NCBI GenBank assembly: GCA_024281825.1
Contig: JAMWZY010000004.1
Coordinates: 165,013 to 229,012, forward strand
Source: Nitrosomonas sp.
Lineage (GTDB): Bacteria; Pseudomonadota; Gammaproteobacteria; Burkholderiales; Nitrosomonadaceae
Direction of reading: 5' to 3'
Length of the DNA stretch: 64,000 nt
Below are positions 760-52,928 of this stretch, one piece after another. The notes under the pieces are model-generated. The model was not told where the DNA came from. It did not search any database and was given only the letters and a program-made list of their open reading frames with translations. The position numbers and the translations under genes were made by a program. The number at the start of each line of letters is the position of its first letter. The stretch's first letter is position 1.

Positions 760-1361
760 ATTTTAGAAAACTGTTGTTCCCATAAATCGGTATGTTTAGT
801 ACACACAGCATCAGCGGGGATAGCCTGCTCATTGAGCAATCTTGCCAATGCGGGAATTTCACTGTGCGCATCGCGTCCTTGCAATTCCGGGGAAACCAGA
901 CATAGTTTGAAGCCAGCCGTCTGGAGCCGTTGTGCATCATGTGACGTCAATGGAAAACGGTTGAAGCAATCGATCCATGCCCAGTCAACTTTACCGGCCA
1001 ATGCTAAAGCGGTTTCGACCGATTCAAATTCAGATACTCTTACCGCACAGCGGTGTTCTCCGGTTTTCGACCATTTCACCAGAAATGGGAACGATTGATC
1101 GAGAAAAAAATAATCCGTAATGTTTTTTTTGCGCATCAGATCGATCAGCCGTGCTTCTAATCCTTCCTCTTTGACATTGAGAATCAAGGTTCCATGCTGA
1201 TAAGCGTTAATCCATTCGGTCAGTGATTCACCGCTGAGAAATGGATCGTGCTGCAGGATCAGCTGGTCACCTAGGCTGCGGATATCGATTTCGATGCCAT
1301 ATTGTGGATTCGTGGCACGCAGCTCGTCGATGGTATTACGACGGTGGGCAATGAGTTTCAT
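756..1361 (-). CDS. Glycerophosphodiester phosphodiesterase-like protein
   Basis: The start is the ATG at 1361, giving 201 residues. A start farther upstream would run about 85 nt into the preceding gene, whereas this one gives an ATGA overlap with its stop. The N-terminus has the GDPD hallmarks: H6-R7 in IAHRR, the E24-x-D26 metal pair in GIEIDIR, and H38-D39 in QHDPF. GDPD enzymes hydrolyse glycerophosphodiesters with a divalent metal in a TIM barrel. The protein is shorter than typical GlpQ and has no signal peptide, so it is probably cytosolic. Inside a glycan operon it may act on a phosphodiester-linked sugar intermediate rather than a phospholipid head group, but the substrate is unknown. 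Confidence 0.65.
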   Translation of the reverse strand: MKLIAHRRNTIDELRATNPQYGIEIDIRSLGDQLILQHDPFLSGESLTEWINAYQHGTLILNVKEEGLEARLIDLMRKKNITDYFFLDQSFPFLVKWSKTGEHRCAVRVSEFESVETALALAGKVDWAWIDCFNRFPLTSHDAQRLQTAGFKLCLVSPELQGRDAHSEIPALARLLNEQAIPADAVCTKHTDLWEQQFSKI

Positions 1362-2056
1362 GCCGAGATATTTTTTTTCAGTTGCAGACTGAAATCGATG
1401 GTGCGGCGAATAAATTTCCATTTGGCTGCCCAATTGACGTTCCAATGCGATACACCATGCGCCCGTTCACCGAACTTAACGGGGAAGCGATGCACGGCTA
1501 ATCCTTGCCGCTGTGCTTGATAGTAAGCATACAAATCCAACGAAAAATCATGCGGCGGCGAATGCCAAGTCAGAAAAAAATCACGCGAAAACAGGGTTGG
1601 TTGCGCATTGATGTCCCACATTGGCTTGGCCATCAAAATGGTTTCAAAAACACTCATGCCAACGGTAAATACCACATCCATGAAAGGGCGGCCGTAGCGT
1701 TGTCCTTTGACAAAGCTGTTGCTGCCGTAACGATCAAATAATTCCAGGCCATGCAGCGTATCTTGCGGATCGGTTTGCATATCGGCATGTGTCCAGCCCA
1801 GAATGTCTCCTTCGGCTGCTTTGAGGCCGGACAGGATGCCAAAGCCATATCCTTGGTTATTGTCTACGCGCACACTGCGGCAACCTGGATATTGGGGCAG
1901 TAAGTTTTGCAATACTGTTGGCGAATGGTCGGTTGAGCCATTATCAACCAGGATGACTTCAATATCGGGCTGAGCTCCTAAGGGTTTGCAACGCTCCAGC
2001 AATAAGGGAAGGTTGGCGGATTCGTTATAACAAGGAATAATCAGTGAAAATCTCAT
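1358..2056 (-). CDS. Family 2 glycosyltransferase
   Basis: This 232-residue protein opens with the classic GT2 start FSLIIPCYNESANL, followed by the nucleotide-binding VDNGSTD at about residues 37-43 and a metal-site region HADMQTDP near 90. These are GT-A fold signatures of enzymes that use nucleotide-diphospho sugars; the closest type is dolichyl/undecaprenyl-phosphate mannose or glucose synthase (DPM1/GtrB). It lacks the C-terminal membrane helices of full-length GtrB. The ATG at 2056 overlaps the TGA of the gtrA-like gene by four bases. Pairing with GtrA suggests it makes a polyprenyl-phosphate sugar for use outside the membrane by the downstream membrane transferase (inference). Confidence 0.85.
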   Translation of the reverse strand: MRFSLIIPCYNESANLPLLLERCKPLGAQPDIEVILVDNGSTDHSPTVLQNLLPQYPGCRSVRVDNNQGYGFGILSGLKAAEGDILGWTHADMQTDPQDTLHGLELFDRYGSNSFVKGQRYGRPFMDVVFTVGMSVFETILMAKPMWDINAQPTLFSRDFFLTWHSPPHDFSLDLYAYYQAQRQGLAVHRFPVKFGERAHGVSHWNVNWAAKWKFIRRTIDFSLQLKKNISA

Positions 2057-2496
2057 GGAAGCTCCGATGGTTTGGCAGAGTTGTTAGGATTGACGGAATT
2101 TGCCGATTTTGCCTGTGAGTGGAAAACAAAAAACTTCATGCCGAGAAAATTCAATGTAGCCGAAACACCTGTTGCCAACAAAAAAGCCCACTGTAGGCTG
2201 GAGGGAACATCGATTAACGCTTTCAGTGCTAATGCATTAACTGCAATATTAGCAATGAAGGTAGACAGATACAATGCGGCAAAACGCCCCACGCTACCGG
2301 CGGCAATCGATTGGTGGCCAAATGTCCAGAAGCGGTTAGCAAAATAGGCAAATACTGTTCCGGCCAAGAAACTAACACCTTTGGCAAGGTCGATACTGGC
2401 AACATCCAGCCATAGCAAGCCGCGATAAACGGCGAAGTCGACCAGTACGGTCAATGAACCTACAATTAAAAAAATACCGAGCTCACGTTTGATCAT
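2053..2496 (-). CDS. GtrA-like membrane protein
   Basis: A 147-residue protein with four predicted membrane helices, beginning ELGIFLIVGSLTVLVDFAVY and containing the FANRFWTFGH block between helices 2 and 3 that is typical of the GtrA/PF04138 family. GtrA proteins are thought to flip undecaprenyl-phosphate-linked sugars. The gene starts inside the end of the nucleotidyltransferase gene (14 nt overlap) and its stop overlaps the GT2 start. This gtrA-GT2 adjacency is the usual arrangement in O-antigen or teichoic acid glucosylation loci. Confidence 0.85.
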   Translation of the reverse strand: MIKRELGIFLIVGSLTVLVDFAVYRGLLWLDVASIDLAKGVSFLAGTVFAYFANRFWTFGHQSIAAGSVGRFAALYLSTFIANIAVNALALKALIDVPSSLQWAFLLATGVSATLNFLGMKFFVFHSQAKSANSVNPNNSAKPSELP

Positions 2497-4168
2497 GATT
2501 TTTTGCAGTCAAGAAATGGGGAACCAAGGCTTGGTAGCGTTGCTCAAGATGCTTAATTTGTGTTTCTGGGATTCGAGCATCCTGCTCCAGCCGGTAAGGG
2601 TGCCCGTTCCATTTGTGAAAGCACGACTGCCAGTATTCAAACGTGCGTAAATCATTCGGCGTGCCCCAGCACAGATAGTGATCGACTTCAAATAACTGGC
2701 AACGTAGTCCAAGTGCTATCGCATCGTTGATGCACGAATCGATATAGAATTCGCCGTTAATTCGTCCATCGCGCGCCATGAGTCTTTCTAAGGCGCGACG
2801 GTAATCCTGTTCGCGACGGAAAGTAAATGTTCCGAGTATGATGGGATCCGTTGCAGGATTCTGTAAGGGTGTTTTTACTGAGATAGCCCGGATCAAGCCA
2901 TTTGAATCCGTATCGATCCAGCCAAACATGTGTGGATTTCGGATTGCGTTGGGATAACCGCGCACGCCCCACACGATGACATCGATGTTCGTATCATCAA
3001 TGAGCTGTTGTAAAAGCTCAGGTCGATAGAGCGCGCCATTGTCGCAAGCGCCAATGGTGATAGGTTCGGGAATGTTTTCTAACGTATCTCGTAAAGCATC
3101 GATACCGATTAACGCAGTGATCGCCTGGCCCTCGGTTACGTGATCGATGGTTTTAATGATCGCACTCGGATAAGCATGGTTTAGTTCCGTGATGATCGCT
3201 TGATATTCAGGCATGTCAGTACGTAACACAAAAACCTGATGCTGTGCTGGTGGCAAGTCATGGACGGCTTGTGTCACCATGGCCTTTCCAGAAACGGGGA
3301 GCATCGGCTTGGTCGTGGTATAACCTTCGTTAGCAAAACGTTGTCCCAACCCTGCCATGGGTATGACCAGGGAACCACGTGGAGGAGGGAGGGAGGGCGG
3401 TGGATTGAGCAGGTTTCTAAATGCGTCTGACCACTGATTGTATTCCGCCACGTCTTCCGGTGTGCCCCATTGCATGAAATGCTGCAAGGGATACACGGCA
3501 ATCGGCAATTGCTGTACCAGCAAAGGTTTATAGGCCAAGCTGACATAATATTCACCGCCGACGTTCAGTTGTTGCGCCATGGTGTGATGAAAAGCTTCGC
3601 TCATCAAGTGCGCCGATGCGAAATAATATGTGCCGCTGGAAGCAAATTCCTCCATGCGGTTCGCAGTGTAAGGTTGTTTTTCCTGGATGTCCTGTACCCA
3701 ACCGTCTATTTCTCGCATGTACGCATAGTTGGTACTACCCAGCGAATGTGGATGAAATCCGCGATAGGCCGGAATCGCGCCTGTGCACTGATTTTTTGTA
3801 ACGAACCGTTTGAAATGTTGCCAATCCCAATAACACGTGAAATCGCAATAATTCACTACCACCGGTAACTGGGGATCGAGCAGGTGCTCCGCTTGGCGTA
3901 CTGCATTGATCGGCCCGAGCTTGTGCGGTGCAATGCCGATAATCCGTGCTGAAGGGCAATAATGTTGCAAGATGGCGTGCATGCGATAAGCTGGTTCATC
4001 GAGATGCTGCTGGTTGCAGACAAAAATAAAACCCGTTTCACCGGGAAATAGATCAATGACGTGCGCAATGATCGGTTTGCCTTCGATTTCAATCAACGGT
4101 TTAGGTACAGTGTATCCGGCGCGGCGAAACCGCTCGCCAAAACCGGACATGGGAATGATGATCTGCAA
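2483..4168 (-). CDS. Tandem (two-domain) sugar nucleotidyltransferase
   Basis: A 561-residue protein built of two homologous NTP-transferase domains. Domain 1 (about 1-255) has GFGERF at 9-14, K23, NYCDF near 106-110, GGEYY at 204-208 and WGTPED at 234-239. Domain 2 (about 266-535) has the matching GLGQRF at 273-278, K287, GACDNG near 373-378, NGEFY at 471-475 and WGTPND at 501-506. A proline-rich linker (256-265) joins them. These motifs belong to enzymes that make NDP-sugars from NTP and sugar-1-phosphate. The start codon is TTG at 4168; the weak ribosome site makes this less certain. It heads the glycan operon and probably supplies activated donors to the downstream glycosyltransferases. 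Which sugars are used cannot be read from sequence. Confidence 0.8.
   Translation of the reverse strand: MQIIIPMSGFGERFRRAGYTVPKPLIEIEGKPIIAHVIDLFPGETGFIFVCNQQHLDEPAYRMHAILQHYCPSARIIGIAPHKLGPINAVRQAEHLLDPQLPVVVNYCDFTCYWDWQHFKRFVTKNQCTGAIPAYRGFHPHSLGSTNYAYMREIDGWVQDIQEKQPYTANRMEEFASSGTYYFASAHLMSEAFHHTMAQQLNVGGEYYVSLAYKPLLVQQLPIAVYPLQHFMQWGTPEDVAEYNQWSDAFRNLLNPPPSLPPPRGSLVIPMAGLGQRFANEGYTTTKPMLPVSGKAMVTQAVHDLPPAQHQVFVLRTDMPEYQAIITELNHAYPSAIIKTIDHVTEGQAITALIGIDALRDTLENIPEPITIGACDNGALYRPELLQQLIDDTNIDVIVWGVRGYPNAIRNPHMFGWIDTDSNGLIRAISVKTPLQNPATDPIILGTFTFRREQDYRRALERLMARDGRINGEFYIDSCINDAIALGLRCQLFEVDHYLCWGTPNDLRTFEYWQSCFHKWNGHPYRLEQDARIPETQIKHLEQRYQALVPHFLTAKNHDQT
3381..3403 (+). repeat. G-rich tract within the tandem nucleotidyltransferase gene
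   Basis: The plus strand carries seven successive runs of two or three G separated by single A or C (and one T), a pattern able to form at least a two-layer G-quadruplex. It lies opposite the codons for the proline-rich linker between the two nucleotidyltransferase domains, so it may simply reflect CCN proline codons. On the transcribed minus strand the RNA is C-rich. Confidence 0.5.
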
Positions 4169-6045: not shown

Positions 6046-7167
6046 TTAATCTAAGTAGCCACTCAGATACCACTGATACAGCAGTGCTTCCGTTTCTTTA
6101 TCGACAGGCATTGCGGCGGGCAACGTATAGTCGTCGGCCAGCTTGGTCAGGGTTGTAAATGCGTGTTTGTTGGCAGGATACGCTTCTCCATTGATAAACA
6201 AGGTGTTGCCTGCAGTCAGCAGGCGGCTTTTCAAGTTAAGCTTGATGCCATTTTCCTGTAGATGTTTTTGAAACTGGCGCTGAGTCATTGGTTGTTCCGG
6301 TGGATCGAAGAATACGTGTGATTTCGGTTCGGATAGGTAGTGGCCGAGAAAATCTTCCACCTTCATTTCGTTCCAGTGAATTTTCTTAAGGATGTTGCGC
6401 GTTTGTTGTTGCATGCCGGAACCGATGCGGGAGGGGTGTTGTTGCAATTGCAAATCTGGGTCTGAGTACCAGCCTTCGATTTGTATCGAATCTTGCAAGT
6501 AGATGAGGAATTGTTCAATCAGTTCTTGGTGGCTTGGTGCACGAAAACCGATTGAATAAGTCATGCAATCGTCTTCTGCGATACCGTTATGGGCGTATTG
6601 TGGCGGCAGGTAAAGCATATCACCGGCATGCAGGAGCCATTCTTGTTCGATATGAAAGTGTTCCAAGATTCTTAATGGCGCATCGGCGATCAATGTCTGA
6701 TCCGGTTGTGCGGAGATCTGCCAACGCCGTGTGCCAAGCCCTTGCAGCAAAAAAACATCGTATGAATCGAAATGTGGGCCGACGCCCCCGCCTTCAGGTG
6801 CATAACTGACCATCAAGTCATCCAAACGCGCATGTGGAATAAAGCGGAATTGCGTTAAAAGATCGCGTGCTGCCGGTAAGAAGTGATTAATTTCTTGTAC
6901 TAGTAAAGTCCATTGCTTGCCAGATAATTTCCTGAAATCTTGATTGCGGAACGGGCCATGCCGTAACTGCCATTGCTGGTTTTCATGAATAACGAGCCGG
7001 GATTGGGCTTCATCATGGCAAGCGAGCTTTTTTAATGCGGCCGGTGAGAGTAAGCCATTAAAATCGGGTATTGCATTCCTTACCAGCAATGGTTTTTTTT
7101 GCCAGTATTCGCGTAAAAAGCATTCTGGTGTAAGGTTTCCCAAGGAAATTAAAGAGGGAGTGTTCAT
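6046..7167 (-). CDS. roxA: JmjC/cupin ribosomal oxygenase, L16 arginine hydroxylase type
   Basis: This 373-residue protein matches YcfD/RoxA-type Fe(II)/2-oxoglutarate dioxygenases, which hydroxylate an arginine of ribosomal protein L16. It starts with the usual LTPECFLREYWQKKPLLVRNA. The iron triad is visible as H132-x-D134 in GPHFDSYDVF and H193 in PPQYAHNG, inside the double-stranded beta helix. The C-terminal region (about 230-373) corresponds to the dimerisation and winged-helix part. The length agrees with E. coli RoxA. It lies 11 bp after msrB on the same strand, forming a likely two-gene unit. Confidence 0.85.
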   Translation of the reverse strand: MNTPSLISLGNLTPECFLREYWQKKPLLVRNAIPDFNGLLSPAALKKLACHDEAQSRLVIHENQQWQLRHGPFRNQDFRKLSGKQWTLLVQEINHFLPAARDLLTQFRFIPHARLDDLMVSYAPEGGGVGPHFDSYDVFLLQGLGTRRWQISAQPDQTLIADAPLRILEHFHIEQEWLLHAGDMLYLPPQYAHNGIAEDDCMTYSIGFRAPSHQELIEQFLIYLQDSIQIEGWYSDPDLQLQQHPSRIGSGMQQQTRNILKKIHWNEMKVEDFLGHYLSEPKSHVFFDPPEQPMTQRQFQKHLQENGIKLNLKSRLLTAGNTLFINGEAYPANKHAFTTLTKLADDYTLPAAMPVDKETEALLYQWYLSGYLD

Positions 7168-7178
7168 GTAGGTATTGA

Positions 7179-7778
7179 TTAGCTTCGAAGTAAGGGGAGC
7201 GGGTCGGTTTTAAGCACAAAATTTAAAGCTAATCCGTTATTGCACCAGCGTTGCTTGGTTGGAAGCGGCCCATCGTTAAAAACGTGACCCTGATGTCCGT
7301 GGCAACGGATGCAGTGATATTCAGTGCGTACAATGTCGAATTGATGATCCGGTTGAGTGCCAACATGGCGTGCAATGGGTTGTGTAAAACTCGGCCAACC
7401 ACTACCGCTTTCATATTTGTGCTGGCTTTGAAATAGCGGTAGATAGCATGCGGCGCAGATAAACGTGCCTTCGCGGTGCTCGTGATTGAGTTCGCTGCTA
7501 TTGGGTTCCTCGGTGTGGTGTTCGAATAACACGTGATAAGCTTCGGGTGAAAGTTGTGTGCGCCAAGCGATGTGAGGTTTATTGAGTGGTTCTAAATGTG
7601 AATGGGCAAATACCCGCGGCAAAGTTAATGCCGAAGCGATAGGCGCACAAAGAACAATGCCCAGTGCTTGAAGAATGTTACGCCGTTTTATGTTGTGAGT
7701 GCGGGTCATTGCTGAGTGGATCAATAAAGCAGTCAATTTTGTATGCCGTCGGGTCAATTGCGTTGCATGCCGATTCAC
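7179..7778 (-). CDS. msrB: Peptide methionine-(R)-S-oxide reductase with Tat-like signal
   Basis: The enzyme reduces methionine-R-sulfoxide in proteins. Two zinc-binding pairs are present, C108-x-x-C111 and C156-x-x-C159, as is the catalytic C179 in RWCNNGLALNF (the family usually has RYCxNS). Preceding the SelR domain is KRRNILQALG followed by a hydrophobic stretch and an AHS-like cleavage region, resembling a twin-arginine signal, so the product may be periplasmic. The start is uncertain: GTG at 7778 has an AGGA at good spacing, while ATG at 7709 gives a shorter n-region. I list the GTG. A roxA-like gene follows directly. Confidence 0.85.
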   Translation of the reverse strand: MNRHATQLTRRHTKLTALLIHSAMTRTHNIKRRNILQALGIVLCAPIASALTLPRVFAHSHLEPLNKPHIAWRTQLSPEAYHVLFEHHTEEPNSSELNHEHREGTFICAACYLPLFQSQHKYESGSGWPSFTQPIARHVGTQPDHQFDIVRTEYHCIRCHGHQGHVFNDGPLPTKQRWCNNGLALNFVLKTDPLPLLRS

Positions 7779-50374: not shown

Positions 50375-50449
<75 letters not shown>

Positions 50450-50504
50450 TAGGCTAAGATTATTGTGAATTAAAGGGTTTAGTACGTAAAAAAGGGAGCG
50501 AGTC

Positions 50505-51693
50505 ATGGCGAAGAGTAAATTTGAGCGGTCGAAGCCACACGTAAATGTAGGGACGATAGGTCATGTAGATCATGGTAAGACGACGCTGACGGCGGCGATT
50601 ACGACGATATTGACGAAGAAATTTGGTGGTGAAGCGAAGAGTTATGCGCAATTGATTCGGCGCCTGAAGAACGTGCACGGGTATAACGATTAATACGGCA
50701 CATGTGGAATATGAGACAGCGAAGCGTCATTATGCGCATGTGGATTGTCCGGGCCATGCGGATTATGTGAAGAACATGATTACTGGTGCTGCGCAGATGG
50801 ATGGAGCGATTTTAGTGGTATCGGCTGCAGATGGTCCGATGCCACAGACGCGTGAGCATATATTGTTGGCACGCCAAGTAGGCGTTCCGTATATCATCGT
50901 ATTCATGAATAAAGCGGACATGGTGGATGATGCTGAATTGATTGAATTGGTGGAAATGGAAATTCGTGAATTATTGTCGAAATATGAATTTCTGGAGATG
51001 AATATCCGATCATTGTAGGGTCAGCGCTAAAAGCGTTAGAGGGTGACTCGAGTGATATGGGTGAAGGCGCGATTGTAAAACTTGCTGAAGCCTTGGATCA
51101 TTACCATACCGCAACCGGAACGTGCAATTGATGGTGCATTTATTATGCCGGTGGAAGATGTTTTCTCGATATCTGGGCGTGGTACGGTGGTTACTGGCCG
51201 GGTAAAGAGGCATAATTAAAGTTGGGGAAGAGATTGAGATTGTAGGTATTAAGCCGACGCTAAAGACGGTGTGCACAGGTGTTGAGATGTTTTCGGAAAT
51301 TGTTGGATCAAGGCCAAGCTGGTGACAATGTAGGTATATTGTTACGGGCACGAAGCGAGAAGAAGTTGAGCGGGGTCAGGTATTGGCTAAGCCTGGAGTA
51401 TATCGCCGGATATGAAGCTTTACAGCAGAGATATATGTATTGAGTAAAGAAGAGGGTGTGGTAGGCGTACACCATTTTCCAGATTATCGTCCGCATTTTT
51501 ATTTTAGGACGACGGATGTGACAGGGTGCGATTGAGTTACCTGCTGGTACGGGAGATGGTGACGCCAGGGGATAATGTATTGGTAACGGTTAACTTGATT
51601 GCACCGATCGCGATGGAGGAAGGTTTGCGTTTTGCGATACGAGAAGGTGGAAGAACAGTTGGTGCCGGTGTCGTCGCAAAAATTATTGAGTAA
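50505..51693 (+). pseudogene. tuf: Elongation factor Tu gene interrupted by many small indels
   Basis: The frame opens correctly (ATG at 50505, AAGGGAG upstream) with the EF-Tu start and P-loop GHVDHGKT, continues in pieces with [16 protein letters not shown] and [13 protein letters not shown], and ends at the canonical [10 protein letters not shown] stop at 51693. Between are about 13 sites where one or two bases are missing or extra, so no full-length product could be made. Reversing them gives a net change of +2 and exactly 1191 nt, the length for a 396-residue EF-Tu. Codons are strongly biased to GCG, ACG and AAG. Proteobacteria usually carry a second tuf copy, so either a real decayed duplicate or consensus error in a collapsed repeat is possible; I favour error. 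Confidence 0.9.
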
Positions 51694-51760: not shown

Positions 51761-51836
51761 AGGCCAGTAGCTCAATTGGCAGAGCGTCGGTCTCCAAAAC
51801 CGAAGGTTGGGGGTTCGATGCCCTCCTGGCCTGCCA
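51761..51836 (+). tRNA. tRNA-Trp (anticodon CCA)
   Basis: A 76-nt cloverleaf with acceptor AGGCCAG/CTGGCCT, anticodon loop CTCCAAA, T-loop TTCGATG and encoded CCA. It lies between tuf and secE, its usual position. Confidence 0.95.
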
Positions 51837-52026: not shown

Positions 52027-52371
52027 GTGAATAAATTGAAGCTTGCATTAGTATTTGTATTTTTTATCGCAGGGATTGTGGGATTCATCTATTTTAGTGA
52101 AAGCCCGATGGTATTGCGTATCCTTTCAATTCTGGTTGGATTCTTGTTGGCTGGGATTGCTGCTAAATTTACTACGCAAGGGCAAGAATTTTATGCTTTT
52201 TCTAAAGAATCTATAGAAGAAACTAGAAAAGTAGTTTGGCCTAATCGCAAAGAAACACTTCAAACATCAGGTGTGGTGTTTGCGTTTGTTATTGCAATGG
52301 CTTTGTTCTTATGGTTAATAGATGCTGCCTTGATGTCACTTGTGAAATTGTTATTGAATCAAGAAGTGTGA
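52027..52371 (+). CDS. secE: Preprotein translocase subunit SecE
   Basis: A 114-residue three-helix SecE of the E. coli type, part of the SecYEG channel. Two N-terminal helices (about 5-25 and 30-48) precede the conserved amphipathic segment FSKESIEETRKVVWPNRKET and the essential third helix. The start is GTG at 52027, with GGA about ten bases before. It is the first gene of secE-nusG-rplKAJL-rpoBC, 190 bp after tRNA-Trp; this gap is AT-rich and should hold a promoter that I cannot assign. Confidence 0.95.
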   Translation: MNKLKLALVFVFFIAGIVGFIYFSESPMVLRILSILVGFLLAGIAAKFTTQGQEFYAFSKESIEETRKVVWPNRKETLQTSGVVFAFVIAMALFLWLIDAALMSLVKLLLNQEV

Positions 52372-52394: not shown

Positions 52395-52928
52395 ATGAGT
52401 AAGAAATGGTATGTGGTTCACGCTTATTCAGGGTATGAGAAAAGTGTTCAACGTGCACTAAAAGAACGTATTGAGCGCGCTGGCATGCAAGATAAATTTG
52501 GTCAAATCTTGATCCCAGTGGAAGAAGTTATTGAGATGAAAAGTGGCCAGAAAAGTATTAGTGAGCGGAAATTTTTCCCTGGTTATGTGCTGGTCGAAAT
52601 GGAAATGTCCGATGAGTCGTGGCATTTAGTAAAGAATACCGATAAGGTTACAGGGTTCGTGGGGGGGTCAGCGATGCGACCTACACCGATCAGTCAAAAG
52701 GAAGTCGATAACATTCTCCAACAAATTCAAGAGGGTATTGAGAAACCTAAACCCAAGATATTGTTTGAGATGGGAGAGGCAGTTCGTGTAAGAGAGGGCC
52801 CGTTTACGGATTTTCACGGTAATGTTGAAGATGTAAATTACGATAAAAGTAAGCTTAGAGTGTCGGTTTCTATATTTGGCAGACCTACGCCAGTAGAGTT
52901 GGATTTTAATCAGGTAGAAAAATCTTAA
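52395..52928 (+). CDS. nusG: Transcription termination/antitermination protein NusG
   Basis: A 177-residue NusG that binds RNA polymerase, linking it to Rho or to ribosomal S10. The NGN domain starts [20 protein letters not shown] and includes [13 protein letters not shown]; a linker leads to the KOW domain (about 125-177) with [25 protein letters not shown] site upstream, 23 bp after secE. Confidence 0.97.

Follow-up and report, generated by a model that had tools for sequence, protein, structure and literature searches.

An interrupted tuf gene in a conserved place

The gene for EF-Tu (tuf) at positions 50505 to 51693 on the forward strand of a Nitrosomonas sequence is interrupted by 13 indel events. 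Is this gene broken in the organism, or in the sequence record? We examined it within the window, the whole stretch of 64,000 nucleotides (C5:165013-229012) from a genome of 2.57 Mb in 19 contigs. Its unique flanks are tRNA-Thr (ggt, 50375 to 50449) and tRNA-Trp (cca, 51761 to 51836). Downstream of tRNA-Trp follow a secE-like ORF of 114 aa (52027 to 52371; of equal length in the related locus L034), an intact nusG (52395 to 52928), ribosomal protein genes and rpoB/rpoC; the tRNAs, the secE-like ORF and nusG are likewise on the forward strand. We named secE and nusG, and likewise the ribosomal protein genes and rpoB/rpoC, by the appearance of their sequences. The order tRNA-Thr, tuf, tRNA-Trp, secE, nusG is a conserved place for tuf, and a single match covers the tRNA-Thr end, tuf and the tRNA-Trp start in four genomes of the same genus (G020, G008, G006, and G014).

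All three forward frames of this tuf are broken, and none is open throughout. The only forward ORFs of at least 60 aa within it encode 62 and 104 aa, and both match the EF-Tu GTP-binding domain (Pfam GTP_EFTU) in consecutive parts. A functional EF-Tu gene would have the three EF-Tu domains in a single open frame of some 396 codons, which the window copy lacks.

Relatives were found using nusG as a query. Nitrosomonas records top the matches, with L034 at 99% amino-acid identity, and DNA identity between the window and L034 is 93% over the aligned 10.5 kb. The relatives named here are the best 80 of 554 loci encoding a NusG relative.

Comparison with an intact sister copy

A second tuf copy had been expected near fusA by a first-pass annotation that read the window tuf codon by codon against EF-Tu. 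It is present at C13:171495-172687, between genes that we take to be fusA and rpsJ. This copy is intact, has 396 codons with all three EF-Tu domains (PF00009, PF03144, and PF03143), and is 95% identical to the window copy over the gene. Alignment of the two revealed 13 indel events, ten of one base and three of two bases (16 bases in all). Nine bases were lost and seven gained, and the net of -2 agrees with a length of 1189 nt against 1191 nt in the sister. The first-pass annotation had proposed about 13 small indels with the same balance; every event it listed was recovered in the same direction, at most 3 bases away.

The differences are confined to bases 129-1086 of 1191, and 128 bases at the start and 105 at the end match the sister exactly. 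In the window, the clean 5' edge extends from 50503 to 50632 (two bases before the ATG plus the 128 bases), the interior, where every substitution (46) and indel event (13) lies, from 50633 to 51588, and the clean 3' edge from 51589 to 51693. Indels were previously thought to far outnumber substitutions; in fact, the substitutions are more numerous than the indel events. The opposite impression arose because silent changes are hidden from a protein reading: with each change classed alone within the sister's codon, 32 of the 46 substitutions belong to this group. The other 14 are non-silent.

A total of 34 of the 46 substitutions fall at third codon positions (p 2e-8 against one third), whereas a natural pseudogene would show no codon-position bias. 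A real tuf pseudogene, in which the organism relies on the fusA-linked tuf while the tRNA-linked copy has decayed, would be tolerable since the C13 tuf is intact. However, the third-position and silent bias indicates an underlying sequence under protein-level selection, and the gene is free of damage at either end. Damage of the same kind in amoA and amoB of one amoCAB copy, and the intact tuf of relatives, both described below, also speak against decay, and we regard a pseudogene as very unlikely. The earlier argument that natural decay would add substitutions fails as stated, because 46 are present; yet the silent bias favors the same conclusion.

The sequence contexts of the 13 indel events were tallied by hand. 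A plain length change of a run of at least two bases accounts for 7 of the 13, and such runs make up 44% of interior bases; for runs of at least three bases, the values are 4 of 13 and 13%. The earlier statement that many indels fall in homopolymers thus holds only in part.

Programmed recoding could in principle rebuild EF-Tu from the interrupted frame: the indels sum to just -2, and one forward frame reaches a proper EF-Tu C-terminus and stop. However, the 13 sites are scattered, and no common signal was seen in their contexts. Moreover, 10 of the 14 non-silent changes alter positions that do not vary among the 11 relatives compared, and the damage is common to amoA and amoB. The probability of recoding is therefore negligible.

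Integrity of other genes

For the control, proteins of at least 100 aa were predicted in L034 and L035 and matched against the window and the C13 stretch, which covered about 21 kb of the genome. None of 22 sense-strand comparisons was interrupted (12 with L034 and 10 with L035, over 16 different genes with 7,835 query residues). The uninterrupted genes are rpoB and nine others in the window, and six around the C13 tuf. The control flagged the window tuf as interrupted with both L034 and L035, and the C13 tuf was uninterrupted in two of two comparisons.

Among all 32 pairs, six were flagged: the window tuf twice and four reverse-strand ORFs, two overlying tuf and two overlying fusA and rpoB, both of which are intact. 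Four of the six comparisons of reverse-strand ORFs that simply overlie tuf, fusA, rpoB or rpoC were flagged; we give these no weight. The 22 comparisons leave aside the six flagged pairs, the two of the C13 tuf, and two unflagged reverse-strand ORFs (over tuf and rpoC). The view that the neighbors are intact was thus upheld for rpoB and the other genes compared, and rpoC, which was outside this comparison, is open over 1400 aa. As far as these 16 genes show, the damage is limited to the repeat, as would be expected of an artefact.

Damage in other repeats of the genome

An artefact of repeats would be expected to affect further near-identical repeats of this genome. The amoCAB operon is also duplicated, with one copy on C8 and one on C10. 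In the C10 copy, amoC, amoA, and amoB are all open. At least the first 1107 repeat bases of the C8 copy (all of amoC) and its last 67 are identical to C10, while its interior (roughly bases 1108 to 3301 in a repeat of 3.37 kb) contains 53 indel bases and 23 substitutions. These dense small indels break amoA and amoB of the C8 copy (C8:125516-126211 and nearby; approximately L118:8087-11437), and amoC is open. Two further amoC copies outside both operons (C13:19504-20235 and C16:51723-52454) are open, as are all four in the genome.

Were the damage genuine, one tuf and one amoAB copy would have decayed very recently, through many small indels, in a living Nitrosomonas lineage. A strain prone to indels would be one example, if only redundant gene copies tolerate their effects. 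We consider this highly improbable.

Repeats of another kind were partly affected. An element that we take to be IS1595-like has a shortened frame in 4 of 10 near-full copies and a full frame in the other six. Compared with the majority, one shortened copy has 33 substitutions and 21 indel bases. Over the whole alignment, with its edges counted, 40 of the 63 indel differences are private to a single copy. Since such elements decay naturally too, they support a repeat artefact more weakly than amoCAB does. The three longer DDE_Tnp_1 copies are open, with 0, 0 and 2 gap openings between them, and like the amoC copies show no damage of that kind. Short-read contigs typically begin at repeats, and C3, C5, C8, and C11 each begin with 75-77 bases of an IS1595-like element end. 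Head-to-tail tandem pairs of this element were observed at C8:6515-8478 and C6:25422-27378.

A search for more repeated gene clusters with PF13447 and PF13435, presumably the hao and cytochrome c554 families, gave no matches and carries no weight either way. The plasmid collection gave partial or short matches only (5 of 62 records, among the matches listed).

Comparison with tuf of relatives

Comparison with the tuf of close relatives, which had been suggested earlier, favored an intact gene. Among the best 80 of 554 loci, 44 begin inside tuf, 13 are without tuf, and 21 have an intact tuf. Of the remaining two, L053 has a run of N inside tuf and L098 has a tuf broken in several frames. Of the 22 named loci with a full-length gene free of N runs, 21 thus have an intact tuf. 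The many records that begin inside tuf mark it as a common break point among these relatives, which favors the artefact as well.

We compared the substitutions of the window tuf with L034. Of the 32 silent changes, 23 carry the L034 base, against 0 of the 14 non-silent ones (Fisher p ~7e-6). Together with the third-position bias, this indicates that the silent differences are mostly real divergence of two functional tuf genes (or of another strain), and that the non-silent changes, like the indels, are mostly error. On this evidence, a working tuf lies beneath the errors.

The two tuf copies of other genomes are usually closer. Eleven other genomes with two full-length copies were compared: in ten of them the pair differs at 0-12 sites, and in G043, to which L035 belongs, two intact tuf genes differ at 50. 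A twelfth pair, in G042 (the genome of L098), was left out since one copy is broken. A report on bacterial gene conversion (PMC5485169) names tufA/tufB. As in the tufA/tufB pairs kept alike in this way, two tuf genes are found here, one beside fusA and one before tRNA-Trp/secE, but the 32 silent interior differences exceed the total in those ten genomes.

One version of the artefact would account for this divergence by a gap filled with long reads of a co-occurring strain or species, the source of both silent differences and errors. The matches to the sister species L034 at 23 silent sites and the closer tuf pairs in ten genomes are in its favor. However, real divergence of the copies gives the same pattern, as the intact pair of G043 illustrates, and 68 sites still separate the window copy from L034. 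A foreign-strain read is thus possible but doubtful.

Consensus error in a repeat as the most likely origin of the interruptions

The damage lies inside the repeat interior, the sister is intact, amoCAB has the same pattern, and the other genes compared are intact. We conclude with high confidence that the frameshifts in the window tuf are errors of the sequence record and not of the organism, arising from consensus error confined to repeats; the damage is almost certainly an ordinary artefact. The first-pass annotation had likewise preferred consensus error in a duplicated gene to decay, and this preference gained support from the intact second tuf, the clean repeat edges, and the amoCAB damage.

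The organism would have two tuf genes, both probably working, the C13 copy beside fusA and the window copy in the tRNA-tuf-tRNA-Trp-secE cluster. Because the two copies are nearly identical, short reads would be hard to place inside the repeat, and the assembler would therefore leave a gap between the unique flanks. This gap may have been filled with long-read or otherwise poorly polished sequence, where both the gap-filling step and the technology are inferred, and polishing would have been unable to correct the filled repeat. The clean edges fit unique flanking contigs that reach slightly into the repeat, with the middle filled separately. Of the two routes named before, collapsed or unpolished reads, the second fits better: a copy simply overwritten by its sister would lack the silent differences, and the middle is most likely a fill of poorly polished sequence rather than a collapse onto the sister copy.

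Some observations count against an artefact. Several repeats are undamaged (6 of 10 IS1595-like copies, the three longer DDE_Tnp_1 copies, and all four amoC copies), just 7 of 13 indels are homopolymeric, and the silent differences alone outnumber all differences in 10 of 11 tuf pairs, G043 with its 50 being the other.

The abstract of PMC8812927 states that long-read assemblies usually retain errors, mostly in homopolymer length, and that short-read alignment is unreliable in repeats, so that errors often persist there after polishing. Such residual errors of long-read or hybrid assemblies resemble the present case in the small clustered indels in a near-identical repeat, the clean repeat ends, and the clean genes elsewhere. 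The window tuf differs in that substitutions are common too. Among the literature listed on Nitrosomonas hybrid assemblies and OPERA-MS gap filling (including PMC7648391), no link to this genome was seen, and the names of the nearest records led to no paper. Record titles of L034 and five others among the best 80 of 554 loci contain 'opera_contig'; we do not claim that the genome of the window is itself an OPERA-MS product.

Several duplicated genes in this record (tuf, amoA, amoB, and some IS copies) are accordingly not to be trusted. Counts of working amoCAB operons or tuf copies, or the use of amoA or tuf as a marker, could mislead, and the genome quality figures (99.89% complete, 0.33% contaminated) give no hint of the repeat damage.

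tuf as a break point in related records

Irregularities at tuf were also observed in records of relatives. In the Burkholderiales MAG ACE_PRO63, the tuf at L098:6334-7501 is broken in several frames, with a second, intact tuf some 17 kb away; this is probably another instance of the same artefact. In the chromosome record CP091134.1 (L053), a run of N at about 7086-7186 stands directly before the last ~144 bases of tuf, and the tuf repeat is unresolved in that record. The two intact tuf genes in the genome of L035 (L141 and L145), with 50 differences over 1191 sites where ten other genomes have 0-12, may reflect relaxed gene conversion between the copies in that lineage or a chimeric record.

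In L034 (Nitrosomonas sp. NEU_AOB_4), fusA-tuf is joined directly to tRNA-Trp-secE-nusG (6072-7633). This resembles a change of gene order. However, the sequences on the tRNA-Thr and rpsJ sides in the L034 genome each stop at contig ends inside tuf, so a misjoin at the tuf repeat is probable, and more likely than a rearrangement.
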